Origin: Actinomycetes bacterium
GTDB lineage: Bacteria; Actinomycetota; Actinomycetes; Streptosporangiales; Streptosporangiaceae
Assembly: GCA_021792405.1 (NCBI GenBank)
Contig: JAJYUU010000014.1
Coordinates: 1 to 44,819 of the forward strand
Length of the DNA stretch: 44,819 nt
Direction of reading: 5' to 3'
Notes under the pieces: generated by a model
Database searches by the model: none
The model's input: only the letters and a program-made list of their open reading frames with translations
What the model was told of the DNA's origin: nothing
Program-made: the position numbers and the translations under genes
Part shown: in pieces, positions 32,580 through 41,569 of the stretch
How positions within the stretch are numbered: the first letter of the stretch is position 1
Layout of the letters: each line of letters opens with the position of its first letter

Positions 32580-35102
32580 TCACATCCGGACGCGCCTGTT
32601 GTCCGGGTCGTAGAGCGGGCGCAGCGAGACCCGCGCCGGGACAACGCGCTGGCCGATCTGCACGCTCCAGTCGGCAGCGTCCAGCCAGGCCTGGTCGACC
32701 GCGGGGCCGCCGGAGTCGACCATGGCAAGGCCGACCGCACCGCCCAGGGTCCAGCCGTAGGAAGCGGCCCTGACATAGCCGACCTCGGCGCCATCGCGGC
32801 GGACGATCTCGGCGTGGAACATCAGCGGCTCGGGGTCGGTCAGCAGCACCTGGACTAGCCGCCTGGTCAGCGGGCCCGCTGCCTTCTGGGCGGCCACCGC
32901 ATCCCGGCCGATGAAGCCACCCGGCTTGTCCAGCGCAACCGCGAACCCCAGGCCCGCCTCCAGCACCGTGTCGGTGTTGTCGATGTCATGGCCGTAGTCG
33001 CGGTAGCCCTTCTCCATCCGCAGGCTGGACAGGGCCTTCAGGCCGGCGTGCCGCAGGCCGAACTCACGGCCCGCTTCGACCAGCCGGTCGTAGACGTGCA
33101 CCGCCTGCTCGGCGGGAATGTGCAGCTCGTAGCCGAGCTCGCCGAGGTAGGTGATCCGGATGCACAAGACGCGCGCGAAGCCGATGTCGAGCTGCCGGGC
33201 CGACCGGAAGCCGAACGCCGCGTCGCTGACGTCCGCGCTCGTGACCGCCGCCAGCAGCTCGCGCGACCTTGGCCCCTGCACGTTGAGCTGAGCGTAGGCC
33301 GAGGTGACGTCGGTCACGAATGCGTGCGCGCCGCTCGCCGCGAACTGACGGCGCAGCCTAGTCAGCGCATGCCGGTGCGCGGTGTCGGAGGCGACCACGT
33401 AGAAGTCGTCATCGGCGAGCTTGGTGACGGTCAGGTCCGCCTCGAGCGTGCCGCCGTCGTTGAGCCACTGCGTGTAGGTGATCAGGCCGCTCGCCCCGTT
33501 GACCCGGCCGGCCGACAGCCTGTCGAGCTCGCAGCCGGCGTCGCGGCCCTGGACGGCGAACTTCGCCATGAACGACATGTCCATCAGGATTACGCCGTCG
33601 CGGCAGGCCTGGTGCTCAGCCTCCCAGTACTTGTACCAGTCCTGACGGCCGAAGGACAGCTCGCCTGCCTCTGGCGCGGCGCCCGGCGCTACCGAGCCCT
33701 CCGGGGCGTACCAGTCCGCGCCCTCCCAGCCACTGACGTCGCGGAAGAAAGCGCCTTGCTCCGCCAGCCGGTGGTGGACGGGTGACAGCTTCGCGCCCCG
33801 GGCGGTCTGCATCGACCTGCCGGGGTAATGCGTTGCGTAAACCAGGCCGAGCGACTCGACGGTCCTGGTTGCGCGGTACTGCGGGTTTGCCTGGTAGGGA
33901 TGCAGCCGGTCGATGTTCATCCCGGTCACGTCGGCATCCGGGCGCCCGTTGAGTATCCAGTGCGCCATCAGCCTTCCGATGCCGCCACCGGTAAGGATGC
34001 CGATCGAGTTAAGGCCCGCGGCGACGAAGTAGTTCTTCAGCTCCGGCGCCTCGCCGAGAACCGGGGCCAGGTCGGGGGTGAAGCTCTCCGGGCCGCAGAA
34101 GAACTTGCGGATGCCGGTCTGCGCGGCGATCGGGATGCGCGACATCGTCTTCTCCAGGAACGGGGCCATCCGGTCCCAGTCCGGCGGCAGTTCGCCGAAG
34201 GAGAAGTCGGCCGGGATGCCGTCCACTCGCCAGGGCGCGCAGACCGGCTCGAACATGCCGAGCATCAGGCCACCGCCTTCTTCGCGGAAGTAGCCGTAGT
34301 TCGCCGGGTCTTCCAGTACCGGCCAATCCCGGCTCACGGCCTCGATCGGCTCAGTGAGGAGGTAATAGTGCTCGGCCGCCTGCAGCGGGATGCTGACGCC
34401 GGCCAATTCGCCGAGCTGCCGGGCCCACATGCCGGCGCAGTTCACCACGAACTCCGCTTCGATGGTGCCCTCGGCGGTGCGGACGCCGGTCACCGCGCGA
34501 GTGCCCGCCTGGCCGCCTGAGGTGAGAAAGCCGGTGACGGCGACTCCCTCGATGATCCGGGCGCCCTGCTGGCGGGCTCCCTTTGCCAGCGACATCGTGA
34601 CGTCGACTGGGTTCACCCGGCCATCGGCCGGGATGTAGAACCCCGCAAGCACGTCGTCGGTTCTGGCCAGCGGCCACAGTTCGGCGACCTGCGCGGCGGA
34701 GATCTCGTGTACCTCGACGCCGCAGTGCCGGTTGAACGCCGCGACACGACGGTATTCCTCCAGCCGCCCCGCTTCGATCGCGAGCTCGATCAAGCCCACC
34801 TGGCGCATCCCGGTGGCCAGCCCGGTCTCGGCCTCCAGCTTCAGGTACAAATCACGGGTGTAGGTGCGCAGCTCGGTGGAGGTCTGCGAGGTGGAGCCGA
34901 AGGTGGCCATCAGGCCGGCGGCGTGCCAGGTAGTGCCCGACGTCAGCCGGTCCCGCTCGAGCAGCACGACGTCCCGAACGCCTAGGTGCGCCAGGTGATA
35001 GGCCACAGAGGTACCAATAATCCCGCCGCCGACGACGACAACCCTCGCCCGGTCCGGCAGGCGCTGGCCGGTGCCGCCAGCCGGCTGCTCACTGGTGATC
35101 AT
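32580..35102 (-). CDS. Dimethylglycine/sarcosine dehydrogenase-like flavoprotein
   Basis: An 840-residue fusion of a DAO-type FAD domain and a GcvT-like folate domain. The Rossmann motif VVVVGGGIIGTSVAYHL lies at residues 21-37. TTWHAAGL places His60 at the position that carries covalent FAD in dimethylglycine and sarcosine dehydrogenases. An FAO-M middle domain follows, then from about residue 440 the aminomethyltransferase fold with LSAGRVNGASGLITYTQWLN and LGELGYELHIP, which in relatives passes formaldehyde to tetrahydrofolate. It should oxidatively demethylate an N-methyl amine; exact substrate is open. I start at ATG 35102, 13 nt after the ettA stop; the longer frame to 35291 lies inside ettA. 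Glycine and methylene-tetrahydrofolate products link it to glyA in the same window. Confidence 0.87.
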   Translation of the reverse strand: MITSEQPAGGTGQRLPDRARVVVVGGGIIGTSVAYHLAHLGVRDVVLLERDRLTSGTTWHAAGLMATFGSTSQTSTELRTYTRDLYLKLEAETGLATGMRQVGLIELAIEAGRLEEYRRVAAFNRHCGVEVHEISAAQVAELWPLARTDDVLAGFYIPADGRVNPVDVTMSLAKGARQQGARIIEGVAVTGFLTSGGQAGTRAVTGVRTAEGTIEAEFVVNCAGMWARQLGELAGVSIPLQAAEHYYLLTEPIEAVSRDWPVLEDPANYGYFREEGGGLMLGMFEPVCAPWRVDGIPADFSFGELPPDWDRMAPFLEKTMSRIPIAAQTGIRKFFCGPESFTPDLAPVLGEAPELKNYFVAAGLNSIGILTGGGIGRLMAHWILNGRPDADVTGMNIDRLHPYQANPQYRATRTVESLGLVYATHYPGRSMQTARGAKLSPVHHRLAEQGAFFRDVSGWEGADWYAPEGSVAPGAAPEAGELSFGRQDWYKYWEAEHQACRDGVILMDMSFMAKFAVQGRDAGCELDRLSAGRVNGASGLITYTQWLNDGGTLEADLTVTKLADDDFYVVASDTAHRHALTRLRRQFAASGAHAFVTDVTSAYAQLNVQGPRSRELLAAVTSADVSDAAFGFRSARQLDIGFARVLCIRITYLGELGYELHIPAEQAVHVYDRLVEAGREFGLRHAGLKALSSLRMEKGYRDYGHDIDNTDTVLEAGLGFAVALDKPGGFIGRDAVAAQKAAGPLTRRLVQVLLTDPEPLMFHAEIVRRDGAEVGYVRAASYGWTLGGAVGLAMVDSGGPAVDQAWLDAADWSVQIGQRVVPARVSLRPLYDPDNRRVRM

Positions 35103-35115
35103 GCCAGCCTGTCGC

Positions 35116-36780
35116 TTAGCCCCGGGTGAGCTTGCGATAGGTGACGCGGTGCGGGCGGGCGGCGTCGGCGCCAAGACGGTCGATCTTGTTCTTCTCGTAG
35201 CCTTCGAAGTTGCCCTCGAACCAGTACCAGTTAGCGCCGCCTTCCCAGGCCAGGATGTGGGTGGCGATCCGGTCCAGGAACCACCGGTCATGACTGGTGA
35301 TCACGGCGCAGCCGGGGAACTCCAGCAGGGCGTTCTCCAGCGACGACAGGGTCTCCACGTCCAGGTCGTTTGCGGGCTCGTCCAGCAGCAGCAGGTTGCC
35401 GCCCTGCTTCAGGGTGAGCGCGAGGTTGACCCTGCCCCGTTCCCCGCCGGACATCAGCCCTGCGGGCTTTTGCTGGTCGCTGCCCTTGAAGCCGAACGCG
35501 GCCACGTACGCGCGGCTCGGAATCTCGGTCTTGCCGACGGTGATGGAGGTTTGCCCGTCAGAGATCGCCTCCCATACCGTCTTGCCAGGATCGATGCCGG
35601 ACCGCAACTGGTCGACGTAGGAGATGCGGACGGTGTCGCCGATCGTGATCGCGCCGGCGTCCGGCTGTTCCTCCCCGATGATCATCTTGAACAAGGTGGT
35701 CTTGCCCACGCCGTTGGGGCCGATCACGCCGACGATGCCGCCCTGGGGCAGGCTGAAGCTCAGGTCCTCGAACAGCTCCCGGTCACCGAACCCCTTGGAC
35801 AGGCCGTCGACGGTCACGACCTGGGTGCCGAGACGCGGACCAGGCGGGATCTGGATCTCCTCGAAGTCCAGCTTGCGCTGCTTGTCAGCCTCGGCTGCCA
35901 TCTCCTCATACCGCTGCAGCCGGGCCCGGCTCTTGGCCTGCCGCGCCCGCGGCGACGACCGCACCCATTCCAGCTCATCTTCCAGCCGCTTGCGCTTCTT
36001 GGCGTCCTTGGCGCCCTCGACCTTCAGCCGGGCTGCCTTGGTCTCCAAGTAGGTGGAGTAGTTGCCCTCGTACGGGTAGGCGTGCCCGCGGTCCAGCTCC
36101 AGGATCCAGCCGGCCACGTTGTCCAGGAAATACCGGTCGTGGGTGACGGCCACGACGGTGCCGGGATACTTCTCCAGGTGCTGCTCAAGCCACTGCACGC
36201 TCTCGGCGTCCAGATGGTTCGTCGGCTCGTCCAGCAACAGCAGGTCCGGCTGCGCCAGCAGCAGCCGGCACAACGCCACCCGCCGTCGCTCACCACCCGA
36301 CAGCACGCTCACATCGGCGTCCGGCGGCGGGCAGCGCAGCGCATCCATCGCCTGCTCTAGCTGGCTGTCCAGGTCCCAGGCGTTCTTATGGTCCAGCTGC
36401 TCCTGCAGCACGCCCATCTCCGCCAGCAGCTCATCGGAGTAATCCGTCGCCATCTGCTCGGCGATCTGGTTATACCGGTCCAGCAGCGCCTTAGTCTCCG
36501 CAACGCCGCCCTCCACGTTGCCGAGAACGGACTTGGCGTCATCCAGTTCGGGCTCCTGCTCCAAGATCCCGACTGTGAACCCCGGCATCAGCCTGGCGTC
36601 GCCGTTCGACGGCTGCTCCACCCCGGCCATCATCCGCAGCAGCGTCGACTTGCCCGCGCCATTCGGGCCGACCACGCCGATCTTCGCGCCCGGCAGGAAC
36701 GCAAGCGTGACGTCATCGAGGATGACCTTGTCGCCGTGCGCCTTGCGGACACGGCTCATCTGGTAGATGAACTCCGGCAT
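35116..36780 (-). CDS. ettA: ABC-F translational throttle protein EttA
   Basis: A 554-residue soluble protein with two ABC domains and no membrane segments. Domain 1: Walker A GPNGAGKS (38-45), signature LSGGERRR, Walker B DEPTNHLD. Domain 2: GPNGVGKTT, MSGGERGR and DEPANDLD. The arm motif of EttA inside domain 1 and the linker with KSRARLQRYEEM are present. In E. coli EttA binds the ribosomal E site and gates entry into elongation according to the ATP/ADP ratio. The second domain carries DEPA where T is standard; the adjoining residues remain intact. The gene lies 114 nt after ssb and 13 nt before the flavoprotein gene on the same strand. Confidence 0.93.
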   Translation of the reverse strand: MPEFIYQMSRVRKAHGDKVILDDVTLAFLPGAKIGVVGPNGAGKSTLLRMMAGVEQPSNGDARLMPGFTVGILEQEPELDDAKSVLGNVEGGVAETKALLDRYNQIAEQMATDYSDELLAEMGVLQEQLDHKNAWDLDSQLEQAMDALRCPPPDADVSVLSGGERRRVALCRLLLAQPDLLLLDEPTNHLDAESVQWLEQHLEKYPGTVVAVTHDRYFLDNVAGWILELDRGHAYPYEGNYSTYLETKAARLKVEGAKDAKKRKRLEDELEWVRSSPRARQAKSRARLQRYEEMAAEADKQRKLDFEEIQIPPGPRLGTQVVTVDGLSKGFGDRELFEDLSFSLPQGGIVGVIGPNGVGKTTLFKMIIGEEQPDAGAITIGDTVRISYVDQLRSGIDPGKTVWEAISDGQTSITVGKTEIPSRAYVAAFGFKGSDQQKPAGLMSGGERGRVNLALTLKQGGNLLLLDEPANDLDVETLSSLENALLEFPGCAVITSHDRWFLDRIATHILAWEGGANWYWFEGNFEGYEKNKIDRLGADAARPHRVTYRKLTRG

Positions 36781-36894: not shown

Positions 36895-37491
36895 TCAGGT
36901 CGCGGCCCCGGCTGGCTCGGCTGCCACCTCCGCGTCCGCGAGGATCCGCCGGGCCTCCTCATCGTCGAACGCGTCGCTGTCCGCAAGCTCAGCCTCGTCT
37001 GGCACTGGGCAGTCCTCGCCGGGTCCGGTGCCATCCCGTTCCGCTGGCCCGCGGTCCCCCGGCAGCGGCTCACGCGGCCCGGCCGCCGCCTCCCGCTCAC
37101 GCTCGGCTGCCGTCTTCTCGAGCTGCTCTGTCGACTTCTTGAAGATTGTGACGCCGCGCGACAGGTCGTGCCCGATGGCATCGGCGATGACCTCGACGAC
37201 GGTTCGCCTGGGACCGTTCCCGTCACCCTGCTCCCGGACCCGCAGGCTGCCTTTGACCACGACCGGGTCCCCCCTGCGCAGGCAGACCGCGGCGTTCTCC
37301 GCTACCTTGCCGTAACAGATGACACTGACGAAATTAGTAGGCTGATCAGCCCACTCTCCAGTAGTTTTGTCGATCCGGCGTGGCGTCCAGGCGAGTCTCA
37401 TGAACAGGGACCGCGTTCCGCTCTTCGTCCATCCGCACGTCGGCGCCGTCGCTACGTAGCCAGTCACGCTGAAGCTCGCTTCGTTAACCAT
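36895..37491 (-). CDS. ssb: Single-stranded DNA-binding protein
   Basis: A 198-residue OB-fold protein. The fold spans about residues 1-115 (FSVTGYVATAPTCGW, FVSVICYGKVAENAAVCLRR and GDPVVVKGSLRVRE). Beyond it lies a long acidic and Pro/Gly-rich tail (about 130-198) that ends AAEPAGAAT; the canonical acidic tip D-D-x-P-F, which recruits replication and repair proteins, is missing. This points to a secondary SSB rather than the replicative copy, which normally sits between rpsF and rpsR. I chose ATG 37491 with GAGGAG upstream; the extension to 37596 is unlike the family. It lies between the GTPase pair and ettA. Confidence 0.9.
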   Translation of the reverse strand: MVNEASFSVTGYVATAPTCGWTKSGTRSLFMRLAWTPRRIDKTTGEWADQPTNFVSVICYGKVAENAAVCLRRGDPVVVKGSLRVREQGDGNGPRRTVVEVIADAIGHDLSRGVTIFKKSTEQLEKTAAEREREAAAGPREPLPGDRGPAERDGTGPGEDCPVPDEAELADSDAFDDEEARRILADAEVAAEPAGAAT

Positions 37492-37625
37492 TCCGGGTCT
37501 CCTCGACATCTGCCGCGGCGGCCCTGCGCCGCCGGCGCGTGTCAAGGATCTGCCTGGTTGCCTGTGCCGGGCTCGTGGCATCGGCAGCTTGTGCACAACT
37601 GCGGGCGGCGCGGTGAAGCTGTGGA

Positions 37626-39338
37626 CTACGCAGGCAGTGCGGCGCCGGCCGCGATCCGCAGCGCGGTCCGGAACCGTTCCAGTTCCTCGAGTTCCGACTC
37701 GGCCGGGGCGATCACCAGATCGCCCGCTACCTCTGCCAGCCGTCGCACGATGTCCTCAGTCAGCGCTTCCGCCTCGCGGGCGGCCGCGCGCCTGACCGCG
37801 CGAGTGCAGACTCGCGCCGTCAGCCAGCCCCCGGCCAGGCCGGCTATGCCCATGGCGGCGGCCCACGGCAGCAGCCACGCATCGCTGAACAGCCTCGGGA
37901 CGCCCGAGCCAACGTGCGCCGCGCCGAAGACGATCAGCGAGGCGAGCCAGGCGATGCCGACGAGCACGCAGCCGAGCAGCAGCCCCTGCGCCACGCCGAC
38001 CAGCCGCCACCACCGGTCGACCACAGCGCGGGCAGGCAGTGCGGCGCCGATCTGTTCGCCAATAGCGGCCGGAATGTCCGCAGCCCTTGACCTGACGGCC
38101 GCCCGGACGGTCCGCGACCACGGCGGCGGCAGCGGCGGGACGCTCTCGTCGGCCACCCTGGTCAGCGCATTGTCGATCGCTGCCGGCTGGGCGCCAGAAG
38201 GGCCGGCGGTGACGCCGCGCAACTGGTCCCATAGCTTGCCGAGCCTGATCTTGCGGGCCGGGTCCGAGCTGGTCAGCCGCTCAGCGACCCAGCTCACCGG
38301 CCAGCCCACATAGTCCCTGGCGCGCAACTCGCGCGCGCTGCGCAGTGCGTCCCCGATGGCGAAGACGCCAGCCGCCGCGGCGAAATCCGCTGCCAGCCCG
38401 GCTGCCGTTCCCGTCCGAAGCTGGATGGCGCCTGCCCCGCCCGGCTCCAGCGAATCAGACGGGAAGCCCGGCTCGATCGCACCGTGGGCCTCGAACCTGG
38501 CCACCAGGTTGTCGACATCGGCCGAGATCCGGACGGCTGCCGCTGTCCGGGCGGTCACCGTCTCGATGAGGAGCTTGCGAAGCTCCTCAATGCCGGCCCC
38601 GCTCTTTGCCGAGGTGACCAGTATCTGCACATCGCCAAGGCCCTCGGAGTCGAGCAGCCGGCGAAGGTCGTGGACGCAGTCCTCGACCTGGCCCGCCGAC
38701 AGCAGGTCGGCCTGGTTCAGCACGACGGCGACGACCTCAGAATGCCCGGCCAGCGGGACCAGGAAGCGCCGGTGCACCGCCGCATCCGCGTACTTCTGCG
38801 GATCAAGCACCCAGACGATCAGATCCGACAGGCCGACCAGCTGACCGACAAGGTCCGTGGCGTGGCCCATCACCGAGTCGTGGTCGGGCAGGTCCAGCAG
38901 CACCAGCCCGTTCATCAACTGCTCGCCGCTGCCCAGCGCGCTCGCCCTGGCATAGCGGTGCCGGCGCGGCACGCCGAGCCACTCCAGCAGCGGACCGGAG
39001 CCGGAAACGCCCCAGACGCAGGCATGCACCTGCCTGGTCACCGGCCTGGTCACGCCGACCGTGGAGAAGTCTGCCCCGGCAAGCTGGTTGAACAAGGACG
39101 ACTTTCCGCTGCCGGTGCCGCCTGCCAGCGAGACCACGGTGTGCCGGGAGGAGAGCATCAGCCGCTGCCCGGCCCTGGTCAGTGCATCGCTGGCCGCTGT
39201 CAGCAAATCCTCGCCAAAACCGTCCGGACCGGTCCGCGCGGCACCTATCTGCACGAGCCTGGCCAGCGCCGCCAGCCGGGCGGACAACCCGGTAAGGTCG
39301 CCACTGTCCGGAATCTGGGTAGTCGGTACGCCGGTCAT
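37626..39338 (-). CDS. Membrane-anchored YfjP/dynamin-like GTPase
   Basis: A 570-residue GTPase. The G domain near the N-terminus has G1 GGTGSGKSS (around residue 73), G3 DLPDHDS, and G4 NQAD in VVLNQADLLS, with VTSAKSGAG as G5-like loop. Helical regions follow, then two close hydrophobic segments at about 451-475 (LLGCVLVGIAWLASLIVFG) and 488-510 (LLPWAAAMGIAGLAGGWLTA), which suggest a hairpin or two-pass anchor, and a helical C-terminus. Its ATG overlaps the stop of the upstream GTPase gene by 4 bp, so both are made together. The arrangement recalls bacterial dynamin pairs in which one partner has membrane segments and one does not; whether it remodels membranes is unknown. Confidence 0.83.
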   Translation of the reverse strand: MTGVPTTQIPDSGDLTGLSARLAALARLVQIGAARTGPDGFGEDLLTAASDALTRAGQRLMLSSRHTVVSLAGGTGSGKSSLFNQLAGADFSTVGVTRPVTRQVHACVWGVSGSGPLLEWLGVPRRHRYARASALGSGEQLMNGLVLLDLPDHDSVMGHATDLVGQLVGLSDLIVWVLDPQKYADAAVHRRFLVPLAGHSEVVAVVLNQADLLSAGQVEDCVHDLRRLLDSEGLGDVQILVTSAKSGAGIEELRKLLIETVTARTAAAVRISADVDNLVARFEAHGAIEPGFPSDSLEPGGAGAIQLRTGTAAGLAADFAAAAGVFAIGDALRSARELRARDYVGWPVSWVAERLTSSDPARKIRLGKLWDQLRGVTAGPSGAQPAAIDNALTRVADESVPPLPPPWSRTVRAAVRSRAADIPAAIGEQIGAALPARAVVDRWWRLVGVAQGLLLGCVLVGIAWLASLIVFGAAHVGSGVPRLFSDAWLLPWAAAMGIAGLAGGWLTARVCTRAVRRAAAREAEALTEDIVRRLAEVAGDLVIAPAESELEELERFRTALRIAAGAALPA

Positions 39339-41569
39339 CGCGCTCTCTCAAGCGCCTCGCCGGCCTGCAGCAACTCGCTGGCCGCGCTGTCGTCCGGCAG
39401 GCCGGCCGAGTCGATGAGCGCGAAGAACCGCTCCGCTTCGGCCGTGAGCAGGCGGCCCGCGCGCTCACGCAAGTCCAGCCGGATGCGCGCACCGATGTCA
39501 CGCAGCAGGCCAGCGCCGAAGAGCGACTCCAGCATCTGCCGCGGCACCGCTTCGACCGCTGTGCCGCCCTGGACCGCTGTGCCGCCCGGTGCGGCGCCCG
39601 AGCTAATTACACCGATCGTCAGCACCAGGGCCAGGGCCTCGTCGTCGAACGACACGACCCTGGCGATCGACCGCTTGGTGACGTTCTCGGCCCTGACCAG
39701 CCGGCGGACATGGTGCTGCCACTCGCTGACCGCCGCCGCAGCGGCCGTCGCGAGTCCTGCGGTCGCCCTGGCGAGCGCTGCTGGGTCGCTGTCGGCTGCA
39801 TTCGCGCCGGGGTCGCTGACCAGGCCCAGGTCGGCCAGCGCGGAGGCGACGAAGTCCGACTCAGTCGGCCCGTCATGGCTGCCTCCGGCCGCCCCGCGCT
39901 CGGCGAGCAAGCCGCTGCCGGCGGGCTGGCGCTGCCAGCCCGCCACCACGAGCTCGGCAGCCCGGTCGGCGGTCGCCATGACCAGCGCAACCATGCTCGC
40001 CTGAAGCGCGCCCTTCAGAGCGATCGCCCTGGCTGGCAGCTGCTGCTTCCGCTGCCGACCACCGCCCCGGCCGCGCCGCGCCGCAAGCGTACGCAGCAGA
40101 TCACCAGCCCCGGCGAAATCCTGCCAGCGCGCCAGCACCTCGCCACGCAACAGCGATCCGTCTCCGGTAGCCTGCTCGAACTCAGCCAGGCCAGCCGTGA
40201 AGGCCGCCTCGACCGTCTCGCGGAGCTGGTGCCGCAGCGCAAGCTGGGCAGTCACCTCGTCGGCCAGGGCCGGCACCCGAGTGCGGAAGGTATCGAGGAC
40301 GCCGGACATGGTCTGGGTCAGCACGGCGACCCGCCGGTCGTCCCGCCTCGCCGTGTCGGCAAGCCACTCGCGAATCGGGGCAGCGACCTCGGCCGGCAGC
40401 TGAGCGTCGGTGATCACGGTCTCAGGGATGATGAACCTGCGGACGTCACTCAAGCCGTTGGCCTCGAGCATCGCGTCGAAATGAGCCGAGAGCTCGGCCG
40501 CCGCGGGAGGGGGGACCCTCGACAGCGCAATCGCCAGCGCGGCCCCGCGATCGCGGGCAGACTGCAGCATTTCCCAGACTGCGGCATCGGCGTAACGGCG
40601 GGCGGTCGTGACGAACAGCCACAGGTCGGACGCATCCAGGAACTGGTCGGCGAAATCCCGGTGGGCCTGCACGACCGAGTCGATGTCCGGCGTGTCCAGC
40701 ACGGCGACGCCCTTCGGCATGCCCTCGCTGGCGGCCAGCACCAGCAGCCCGTCCCGGCCGGGCATGGCCAGGCCCTGCTGGCGGACGCGCGGCAGCGTCG
40801 GCAGGAAGACATTCTCGGCAAACCATCTCATGTCGTCCGGATGACAGGCCAGGACCGGGCTGTTCGTGGTCGGGCGCCGGATCCCGGTGGCACTGACCTG
40901 CCTGGCGACCACGCTGTTCATCAGCGTCGACTTGCCCGCGCCGGTCGACCCGACGAGCGCCACCAGGATCGGCGCGCCCGACTGGCGCAGCCGCGGCAGC
41001 AGGTAGTCGTCGATCTGACTGAGCAGCTTGACCCGTTCCGCCCTCGCGTCGGCGACGCCGGGAGACTCGAAGAGCAGCGGAACGGTGCGGATCGGGTGGC
41101 GCAGGCCGAGCAGGGCAGCCTCGAGTTTCCGGGCGTCAACACGGGCGAACGGCTCATCGTCCGCAGCGGCCCGCACCGTCCCGGCGGTCCCAGCAGCCCC
41201 GGCAGTCTCCGCGACCCCGGCCGTCTCCCCGACCCCGGCGGCGCCGGAGTCACCTGGTTCGGTAGCGGCCGACCGCGTCCAGATCGACCCGGCCCCGGCC
41301 GGCTGGCCGGTCGGCTGGCCAGCGGGCACGCCGGCCTGGCTGGCACCGCTGGCCTGGCTGGCATCACTGGCGCCCTCGACCGTAGCCAGGCCCTGGGGGC
41401 CGGCCGGCACCGGTGCAGTCATCGCCACCTCGGCGAACGAAGCCGGTGGCCCGCCGTGGCCGGGCACAGCCTGGGCACCGCGGAATGACTGGTCAGCAGC
41501 AGCCGGCCTGGGCCAGCCGGGTCCGCCCGGCAGGCTCTGCGCCGCAGCCGCGTCCATTCCCTCGGTCAT
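39335..41569 (-). CDS. Soluble dynamin-like GTPase, partner of YfjP-like GTPase
   Basis: A 744-residue GTPase without membrane segments. Residues 1 to about 150 are low-complexity (Ala/Gly/Pro, repeated GAAG/TAG-like units). The G domain begins near 200: G1 GSTGAGKS, G3 LDTPDIDS (around 293), then LWLFVTTARRYADAAVWE, a region also found in the partner as LIVWVLDPQKYADAAVH. No clear NKxD is seen; ALSRVP occupies that place, as in dynamin-family members with a divergent G4. A long helical region follows up to the end. I start at ATG 41569 (MTEGMDAAA) with AGGAGA upstream; the frame to 41710 is unsupported. The two genes look like ancient duplicates that now act as a heteromeric pair. Confidence 0.82.
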   Translation of the reverse strand: MTEGMDAAAAQSLPGGPGWPRPAAADQSFRGAQAVPGHGGPPASFAEVAMTAPVPAGPQGLATVEGASDASQASGASQAGVPAGQPTGQPAGAGSIWTRSAATEPGDSGAAGVGETAGVAETAGAAGTAGTVRAAADDEPFARVDARKLEAALLGLRHPIRTVPLLFESPGVADARAERVKLLSQIDDYLLPRLRQSGAPILVALVGSTGAGKSTLMNSVVARQVSATGIRRPTTNSPVLACHPDDMRWFAENVFLPTLPRVRQQGLAMPGRDGLLVLAASEGMPKGVAVLDTPDIDSVVQAHRDFADQFLDASDLWLFVTTARRYADAAVWEMLQSARDRGAALAIALSRVPPPAAAELSAHFDAMLEANGLSDVRRFIIPETVITDAQLPAEVAAPIREWLADTARRDDRRVAVLTQTMSGVLDTFRTRVPALADEVTAQLALRHQLRETVEAAFTAGLAEFEQATGDGSLLRGEVLARWQDFAGAGDLLRTLAARRGRGGGRQRKQQLPARAIALKGALQASMVALVMATADRAAELVVAGWQRQPAGSGLLAERGAAGGSHDGPTESDFVASALADLGLVSDPGANAADSDPAALARATAGLATAAAAAVSEWQHHVRRLVRAENVTKRSIARVVSFDDEALALVLTIGVISSGAAPGGTAVQGGTAVEAVPRQMLESLFGAGLLRDIGARIRLDLRERAGRLLTAEAERFFALIDSAGLPDDSAASELLQAGEALERAR

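Follow-up and report, generated by a model that had tools for sequence, protein, structure and literature searches.

A pair of dynamin-like genes, located on the minus strand of contig JAJYUU010000014.1 of an actinobacterium of the family Streptosporangiaceae (assembly GCA_021792405.1), is very probably, on sequence comparison, orthologous to the DynA/DynB pair of Streptomyces and would represent the dynA-dynB locus itself. In the whole 44,819-nucleotide stretch analysed (the window), the dynA-type gene (39335-41569, 744 amino acids, called from its open reading frame, Dynamin_N match and AlphaFold2 model) precedes the dynB-type gene (37626-39338, 570 amino acids, called from open reading frame, Pfam, AlphaFold2 and Foldseek), and the stop of the former overlaps the start of the latter by 4 bp (ATGA, 39335-39338); these are exactly the extents given for an overlapping GTPase pair in an earlier note on this DNA, and translation of DynA and DynB from one message is probably coupled. 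Genes for the single-stranded DNA-binding protein SSB and for EttA follow in the same direction, giving the minus-strand order dynA, dynB, ssb, ettA. The complete interpretation, in which this orthologous locus would provide a heteromeric DynA-DynB complex at the division site, is considered likely. The function in this organism is one that we infer throughout from what was computed here, namely sequence comparisons, predicted folds, tree positions and gene order.

In Streptomyces venezuelae, dynAB is an operon (vnz_12110 and vnz_12105) whose products stabilise FtsZ rings in sporulation septation through contacts with other divisome proteins, according to published work (PMC6428758). Published descriptions give DynB two transmembrane segments and report that it interacts with DynA and co-localises with FtsZ at septa. 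The window locus resembles the Streptomyces pair in the adjacency of dynA and dynB, in the C-terminal hairpin of DynB and the lack of one in DynA, and in the presence of ssb and ettA downstream. The orthology is proposed because the window proteins fall on the same A and B sides of a phylogenetic tree as those of Streptomyces loci, because the gene neighbourhood is shared, and because in seven of eight Streptomyces-type genomes this dynA is the only match to Dynamin_N at E 1e-5 or better. The earlier note had seen a likeness in layout only to the dynamins of sporulating actinobacteria and had suggested a distinct GTPase system; the same evidence, with the pair falling with that of Streptomyces in both halves of the tree, leads us to reject the first view and gives no support to the second. 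Among the weaker matches in the seven genomes are dynB and some short P-loop hits in other frames, of 364 to 553 amino acids and up, which from their size may be Era-, Der- and ABC-like. Two of the genomes (G267 and G268) are S. microflavus and S. lydicus, the Streptomyces-type label of the rest being based on family code, on the presence of up to 12 SsgA-like genes and on one DynB 85% identical to that of S. panaciradicis. The exception, G072, has three more strong matches; three adjacent dynamin-like genes were observed in that genome, separate from its dynAB (G072:C1:6512468-6516813). The window genome also contains, outside the pair, a stronger Dynamin_N match of 84 bits in a 631-amino-acid frame (G000:C92:10908-11381).

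The tree comprised 56 rows (29 DynA and 27 DynB, two DynB rows being missing) from the window, 24 of the 64 loci listed in the scan described below and four others, and it split the 29 A from the 27 B sequences without exception (support 100/100); both sides include the window and five Streptomyces loci. The window DynB groups with ssb/ettA-linked copies of Streptosporangiaceae (100/100) and the window DynA with linked copies of Streptosporangiaceae and Actinomadura (97/93). A second type of dynAB-like pair, with no ssb or ettA in reach, was observed in Streptosporangiaceae (L057, L058, L092, L109 and L112); it makes up a separate clade on the A side and on the B side of the tree, coexists with the linked pair in two genomes (G153 and G162) and, for three further genomes, was the one locus fetched. 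The mirrored clades of linked and unlinked pairs indicate that dynA and dynB travel as a unit. Furthermore, over 33 loci (the window and 32 listed loci with DynA, DynB and EttA, many of them from Streptomyces and therefore non-independent), the pairwise distances of DynA and DynB correlate with r 0.972, in comparison with 0.756 for DynA and EttA and 0.772 for DynB and EttA; the partial correlation of DynA and DynB beyond EttA is 0.935, a value reached in 0 of 2000 permutations.

The scan of actinobacterial genomes listed at least 64 loci, 18 of them from Streptomyces and the others including Nocardioides, Actinomadura, Microbispora, Geodermatophilus, Arthrobacter, Actinomyces and Brevibacterium. 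In 62 of the 64 listed loci dynA lies directly upstream of dynB, the two exceptions being one whose "DynB" is probably a DynA (L136) and one close to a contig end (L086). An ssb gene follows within 3.5 kb in 37 of the 64 (35 of the 53 with room on the contig); for ettA, with a limit of 9 kb, the number is 36 (33 of the 49 with room), and 33 loci have both. Among the 18 Streptomyces loci the counts are 17 for dynA upstream, 17 for ssb and 15 for ettA, which lies some kilobases further away than in the window. All four genes stand in order in eight of eight near-relative regions (six same-genus genomes, one of the same family and one of the same order, selected from 30 relatives), and of 20 hand-picked regions from 18 genomes, including second copies from two genomes, every one has dynA upstream, ssb and ettA being downstream in 10 and 13, respectively. 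The exact 4-bp overlap is found in 37 of 61 listed loci and in 14 of the 20 hand-picked regions, the DynB start being taken as the one nearest to the dynA stop, a choice that favours overlaps. Pairs with no ssb or ettA found in reach occur in Arthrobacter, Actinomyces, Geodermatophilus and others. The arrangement is thus more than chance, since the order recurs in many actinobacterial genera; of the outcomes that the earlier note had named as refuting its proposal, two were looked for, a placement in unrelated families and a lack of conserved linkage, and neither was found, and the GTPase-GTPase-ssb-ettA order that it wished to see checked is indeed conserved. In Promicromonospora (L111:3133-5466) the ssb-ettA block was observed upstream, instead of downstream, of dynA. 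An apparent dynA-dynB fusion in Actinotignum (L128:9704-12022, a 772-amino-acid frame) contains runs of unknown bases and was set aside as a probable artefact.

As regards the single proteins, DynB scores 27 bits against Dynamin_N (PF00350), exactly the cut-off, and 32.7 bits against RsgA_GTPase (cut-off 30), so that by Pfam alone it is no more than a GTPase; DynA reaches 36.1 bits against Dynamin_N. In the NCBIfam scan the matches of both proteins were far under the respective cut-offs. The earlier note had described a shared YADAAV pattern around G3: the pattern is present in both proteins, starting at residue 326 of DynA and 183 of DynB, but in each it begins 34 residues past the first Asp of G3, near this motif rather than at it. 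The division into an anchored and an unanchored partner, also proposed there, was borne out. In DynB, a strong hydrophobic segment (residues 453-471, hydropathy 2.67, where 1.6 was the cut-off for a candidate membrane window) lies in a model helix of residues 442-474 (37917-38015, minus strand), and this helix forms a C-terminal hairpin with a second one of residues 489-563. The Ala/Gly-rich start of the latter (residues 489-507; 37818-37874, minus strand) is the second of the two hydrophobic segments of the note, and here the claim stands in a weaker form: its hydropathy is 1.31 in the window copy, under the cut-off, but 1.44-2.66 in six same-genus relatives. Two windows at 1.6 or above were found in 43 of 58 DynB rows, and we count DynB as having two C-terminal transmembrane segments, on the basis of the model helices and with the second segment weak in the window copy.

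DynA has no transmembrane hairpin. Its single borderline hydrophobic segment (residues 645-663, 1.61; the next best value is 1.56 at residue 515) may be read as a membrane-touching tip, and across the family 47 of 60 rows have a single window that reaches 1.6 within the last 180 residues, and 0 of 60 have two. Residues 1-141 (41147-41569, minus strand) have a predicted local distance difference test score (pLDDT) below 50 and are predicted to be disordered, in agreement with the long disordered N-terminus of the earlier note. The start of this region is kept in four same-genus relatives (MTEG in three and MTER in one; two further same-genus contigs end before it) and its length is variable among them.

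Predicted models place both proteins among the dynamin-like folds, with a large GTPase, a helical trunk and a dynamin-type G domain. AlphaFold2, run on alignments of relatives (46 and 39 rows), gave a pLDDT of 87.2 and a predicted template modelling score of 0.81 for DynB, and of 78.0 and 0.74 for DynA. The best Foldseek matches of DynB are the Campylobacter dynamin-like protein (DLP) pair, Nostoc BDLP, mitofusin 1 and IniA, and those of DynA are BDLP, IniA and the Campylobacter pair. Cj-DLP1/2 (5owv, 5oxf) form a heterotypic pair whose genes, like those in the window, are neighbours; they differ from the window proteins in sequence, with 9-14% identity, and a knockout is reported to have no obvious division defect; Mycobacterium IniA (6j72) and Nostoc BDLP (2j69) share the bacterial dynamin-like fold at 12-14% identity over the Foldseek alignments. 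Mitofusin and Fzo1 (9kfd, 5yew), which are eukaryotic, mitochondrial proteins, align in fold with both DynA and DynB at 9-15% identity. By VIA-align, residues 136-744 of DynA were superposed onto Fzo1 with Z 22.9 and a root-mean-square deviation of 5.3 over 330 residues (9% identity). For DynB, Era ranked first (Z 18.3), together with mitofusin 1 (Z 17.4, deviation 3.6, 297 residues), and on these models the method does not tell families apart. Whole-model template modelling scores stay at about 0.2-0.4; a different angle between trunk and G domain is the probable cause of these low values, so the fold evidence reaches the superfamily and not a particular state. A sequence search of solved structures gave matches of G-domain size only (for DynB, among the best 60 of 110).

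It is in the G4 loop that DynA departs from the rules of its superfamily. Motifs were counted in 60 DynA rows (the window and 59 of the 64 listed loci) and 58 DynB rows (the window and 57), after filters for length, stop codons and contig ends; one of the latter, L136, scores 166 bits as a DynA and 59 as a DynB, and the real number of DynB rows is probably 57, while among the former the L128 row has unknown bases and runs on into dynB. The L135 locus is split into frames. G1, G3 and G4 are all canonical in the window DynB, whose G4 is NQxD, and the G4 Asn and Asp are found in 58 and 57 of the 58 rows, respectively; the single row that lacks this Asp is probably a DynA. In DynA, G1 and G3 are near-invariant (for G1, Lys in 59 and Gly in 60 of the 60 rows; for G3, the first Asp and the Pro in 60 and the second Asp in 59) and NKxD is lacking: [NT]KxD occurs in 0 of the 60 rows, the first G4 position is D in 42, N in 11, S in 5, A in 1 and Q in 1, the second is Arg in all 60, the third is V in 47 and T in 9, and the fourth is Pro in 52 and Asp in 2. 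The divergent G4 remarked on in the earlier note, SRVP in the window copy (residues 350-353; 40511-40522, minus strand), is therefore real and family-wide. In the models the loop that links strand and helix at G4 has about three residues fewer in DynA than in DynB. Profile comparison aligns the Asp of DRVP (42 of the 60 rows) with the G4 Asp by means of a three-residue deletion, and MAFFT, with the invariant Arg, points instead to Lys-to-Arg and Asp-to-Pro changes; the window DynA has Ser at that position, and neither alignment puts an Asp in it. The departure is no reason to drop DynA from the dynamin superfamily, since fold and other motifs fit.

Without NKxD, DynA may not be guanine-specific, and the sequences suggest that its nucleotide site could be relaxed or non-guanine, with DynB as the canonical GTPase half of the pair. 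A more specific proposal, that an ATP-using, promiscuous or nucleotide-locked DynA would be paired with the true GTPase DynB in an asymmetric two-nucleotide dynamin machine, is advanced tentatively and with more doubt than conviction. A precedent for the change in G4 alone is offered by SpoIVA of Bacillus, a TRAFAC-class protein with an altered NKxD that switched from GTP to ATP, as described in the literature (PMC7952092); SpoIVA lies outside the dynamins, has NSxR as its G4 and acts as an ATPase. No work on the G4 of actinobacterial DynA was found in the open literature searched by title.

Several observations weigh against the interpretation of the window locus as a division dynamin pair of the Streptomyces type. 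Identity to the Streptomyces proteins is about 35%; S. venezuelae has no record among the loci listed, its pair being compared by published description; the tree contains A and B rows alone and shows A versus B rather than the rank of either against other dynamin families; and Dynamin_N detects DynB weakly (E 2.8e-5 or worse), so that a second DynB-like protein could escape. The pairs also differ at their N-termini: in Streptomyces it is the DynB frame that gains a long extension when the dynA-adjacent start, an uncertain one, is taken, and in the window it is DynA that has a long disordered N-terminus. On the side of the division reading stand one SsgA-family gene of the window genome, with a full match, and a SepF-family match, limited in that it is partial (30 of 72 positions). 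Across the class, 138 of 246 genomes have a DynB profile match at E 0.001, of which 118 reach E 1e-40 or better and are counted as strong, the other 20 as weak; an SsgA-like gene is present in 92 of the 118 strong-DynB genomes and in none of the other 26, 53 of the 145 SsgA genomes have no strong DynB match, and 75 genomes have neither gene. The two are associated (Fisher p 7e-9, on genomes that are not independent) and separable: given the 26 and the 53, sporulation does not explain the distribution, and SsgA-type sporulation is not the sole setting of DynB. Genomes of family f17 were observed with two to five SsgA-like genes and no strong DynB match, possibly a lineage septating without the DynA/DynB pair.

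A different role would have the two proteins act in envelope stress or membrane repair, in the manner of B. subtilis DynA or IniA, with damaged membrane and not the divisome as the place to which they are drawn. The 26 genomes with strong DynB and no SsgA-like gene would suit it, in that the ancestral task of the pair need not have been sporulation, and so would the models, to which no solved structure is closer than BDLP, IniA and the Campylobacter pair. Nevertheless, the characterised relatives that share the gene order are the Streptomyces DynA and DynB, which act at the divisome, and none of the neighbours (CbiC-type, rhomboid/GtrA-like, SSB and EttA) is a known envelope-stress gene, which leaves this role improbable. 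At the opposite end, the idea that two unrelated GTPases are neighbours by accident could appeal to the alignment between the two families, limited to their G domains, but it is refuted, in our judgement, by the profile match itself (probability 99.7 over 238 columns), by the adjacency in 62 of 64 listed loci and by the mirrored trees.

The downstream genes raise the question of one functional module, in which the dynamins would couple the membrane to the status of DNA or translation together with SSB and EttA, for example in chromosome clearance before septum closure. That both genes follow in about half of the listed loci and in every near-relative region, and that the acidic tip of the two other SSBs of the genome is missing from the linked one, would suit it; the pairs of Arthrobacter, Geodermatophilus and Actinomyces with neither gene found in reach do not, DynA co-varies with DynB above EttA, and a common gene order is by itself weak evidence of a common machine. 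We regard such a module as very unlikely: the dynAB-ssb-ettA linkage is real, and a shared mechanism is not implied by it.

In the preferred reading, that of a division dynamin pair, DynB would be anchored in the cytoplasmic membrane by its C-terminal hairpin and would bind DynA, and the resulting heteromeric dynamin-like complex at the division site would hold the Z-ring and the septal membrane in register, with SSB and EttA as conserved neighbours, probably outside the complex.

The two neighbours follow as the earlier note had said. The ssb gene (36895-37491, minus strand; PF00436, 58.4 bits) was listed with a start at 37596, which is corrected here, probably, to 37491, since on the coding strand AGGAGACCCGGA precedes the ATG at this position; ettA (35116-36780, minus strand), of the ABC-F type, matches NF008775 with 918.9 bits (cut-off 599). 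Among the three SSBs of the window genome, the two unlinked ones end in an acidic DEPPF tip, one of them adjoining a frame that resembles ribosomal protein S18, and the dyn-linked one has no tip. The acidic-tip pattern is met by 0 of 38 SSB-like frames at the listed dyn loci in a rough count, in which some frames overrun the gene; three of the 38 end in PF without adjoining acidic residues. A role of Streptomyces SsbB in segregation at sporulation would also suit the module with SSB and EttA considered above. In the open literature, searched by title or abstract start, no paper was found on Streptomyces coelicolor SsbB in chromosome segregation or sporulation; nor did the open literature yield a paper joining dynAB with ssbB, DynA/DynB with single-stranded DNA-binding, or dynamin-like with EttA in actinobacteria, or one on SCO2683. 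Upstream of dynA, Pfam searches identified a CbiC-type gene and a gene for a small rhomboid/GtrA-like membrane protein. Beyond ettA, an open reading frame at 32580-35291, by eye similar to a flavin adenine dinucleotide-dependent oxidase or aminomethyltransferase, has a listed start reaching back into the ettA 3' end; its true start is probably further in.

The system is largely known already, being a new copy of the DynA/DynB division dynamins, and this analysis extends a characterised pair to an uncharacterised genus. Two points might surprise a specialist. One is the order dynAB-ssb-ettA, which is found widely among Actinobacteria and can be separated from the SsgA-type genes of sporulation; the other is the conserved loss of NKxD in DynA, which raises a biochemical question, namely which nucleotide, if any, DynA uses.

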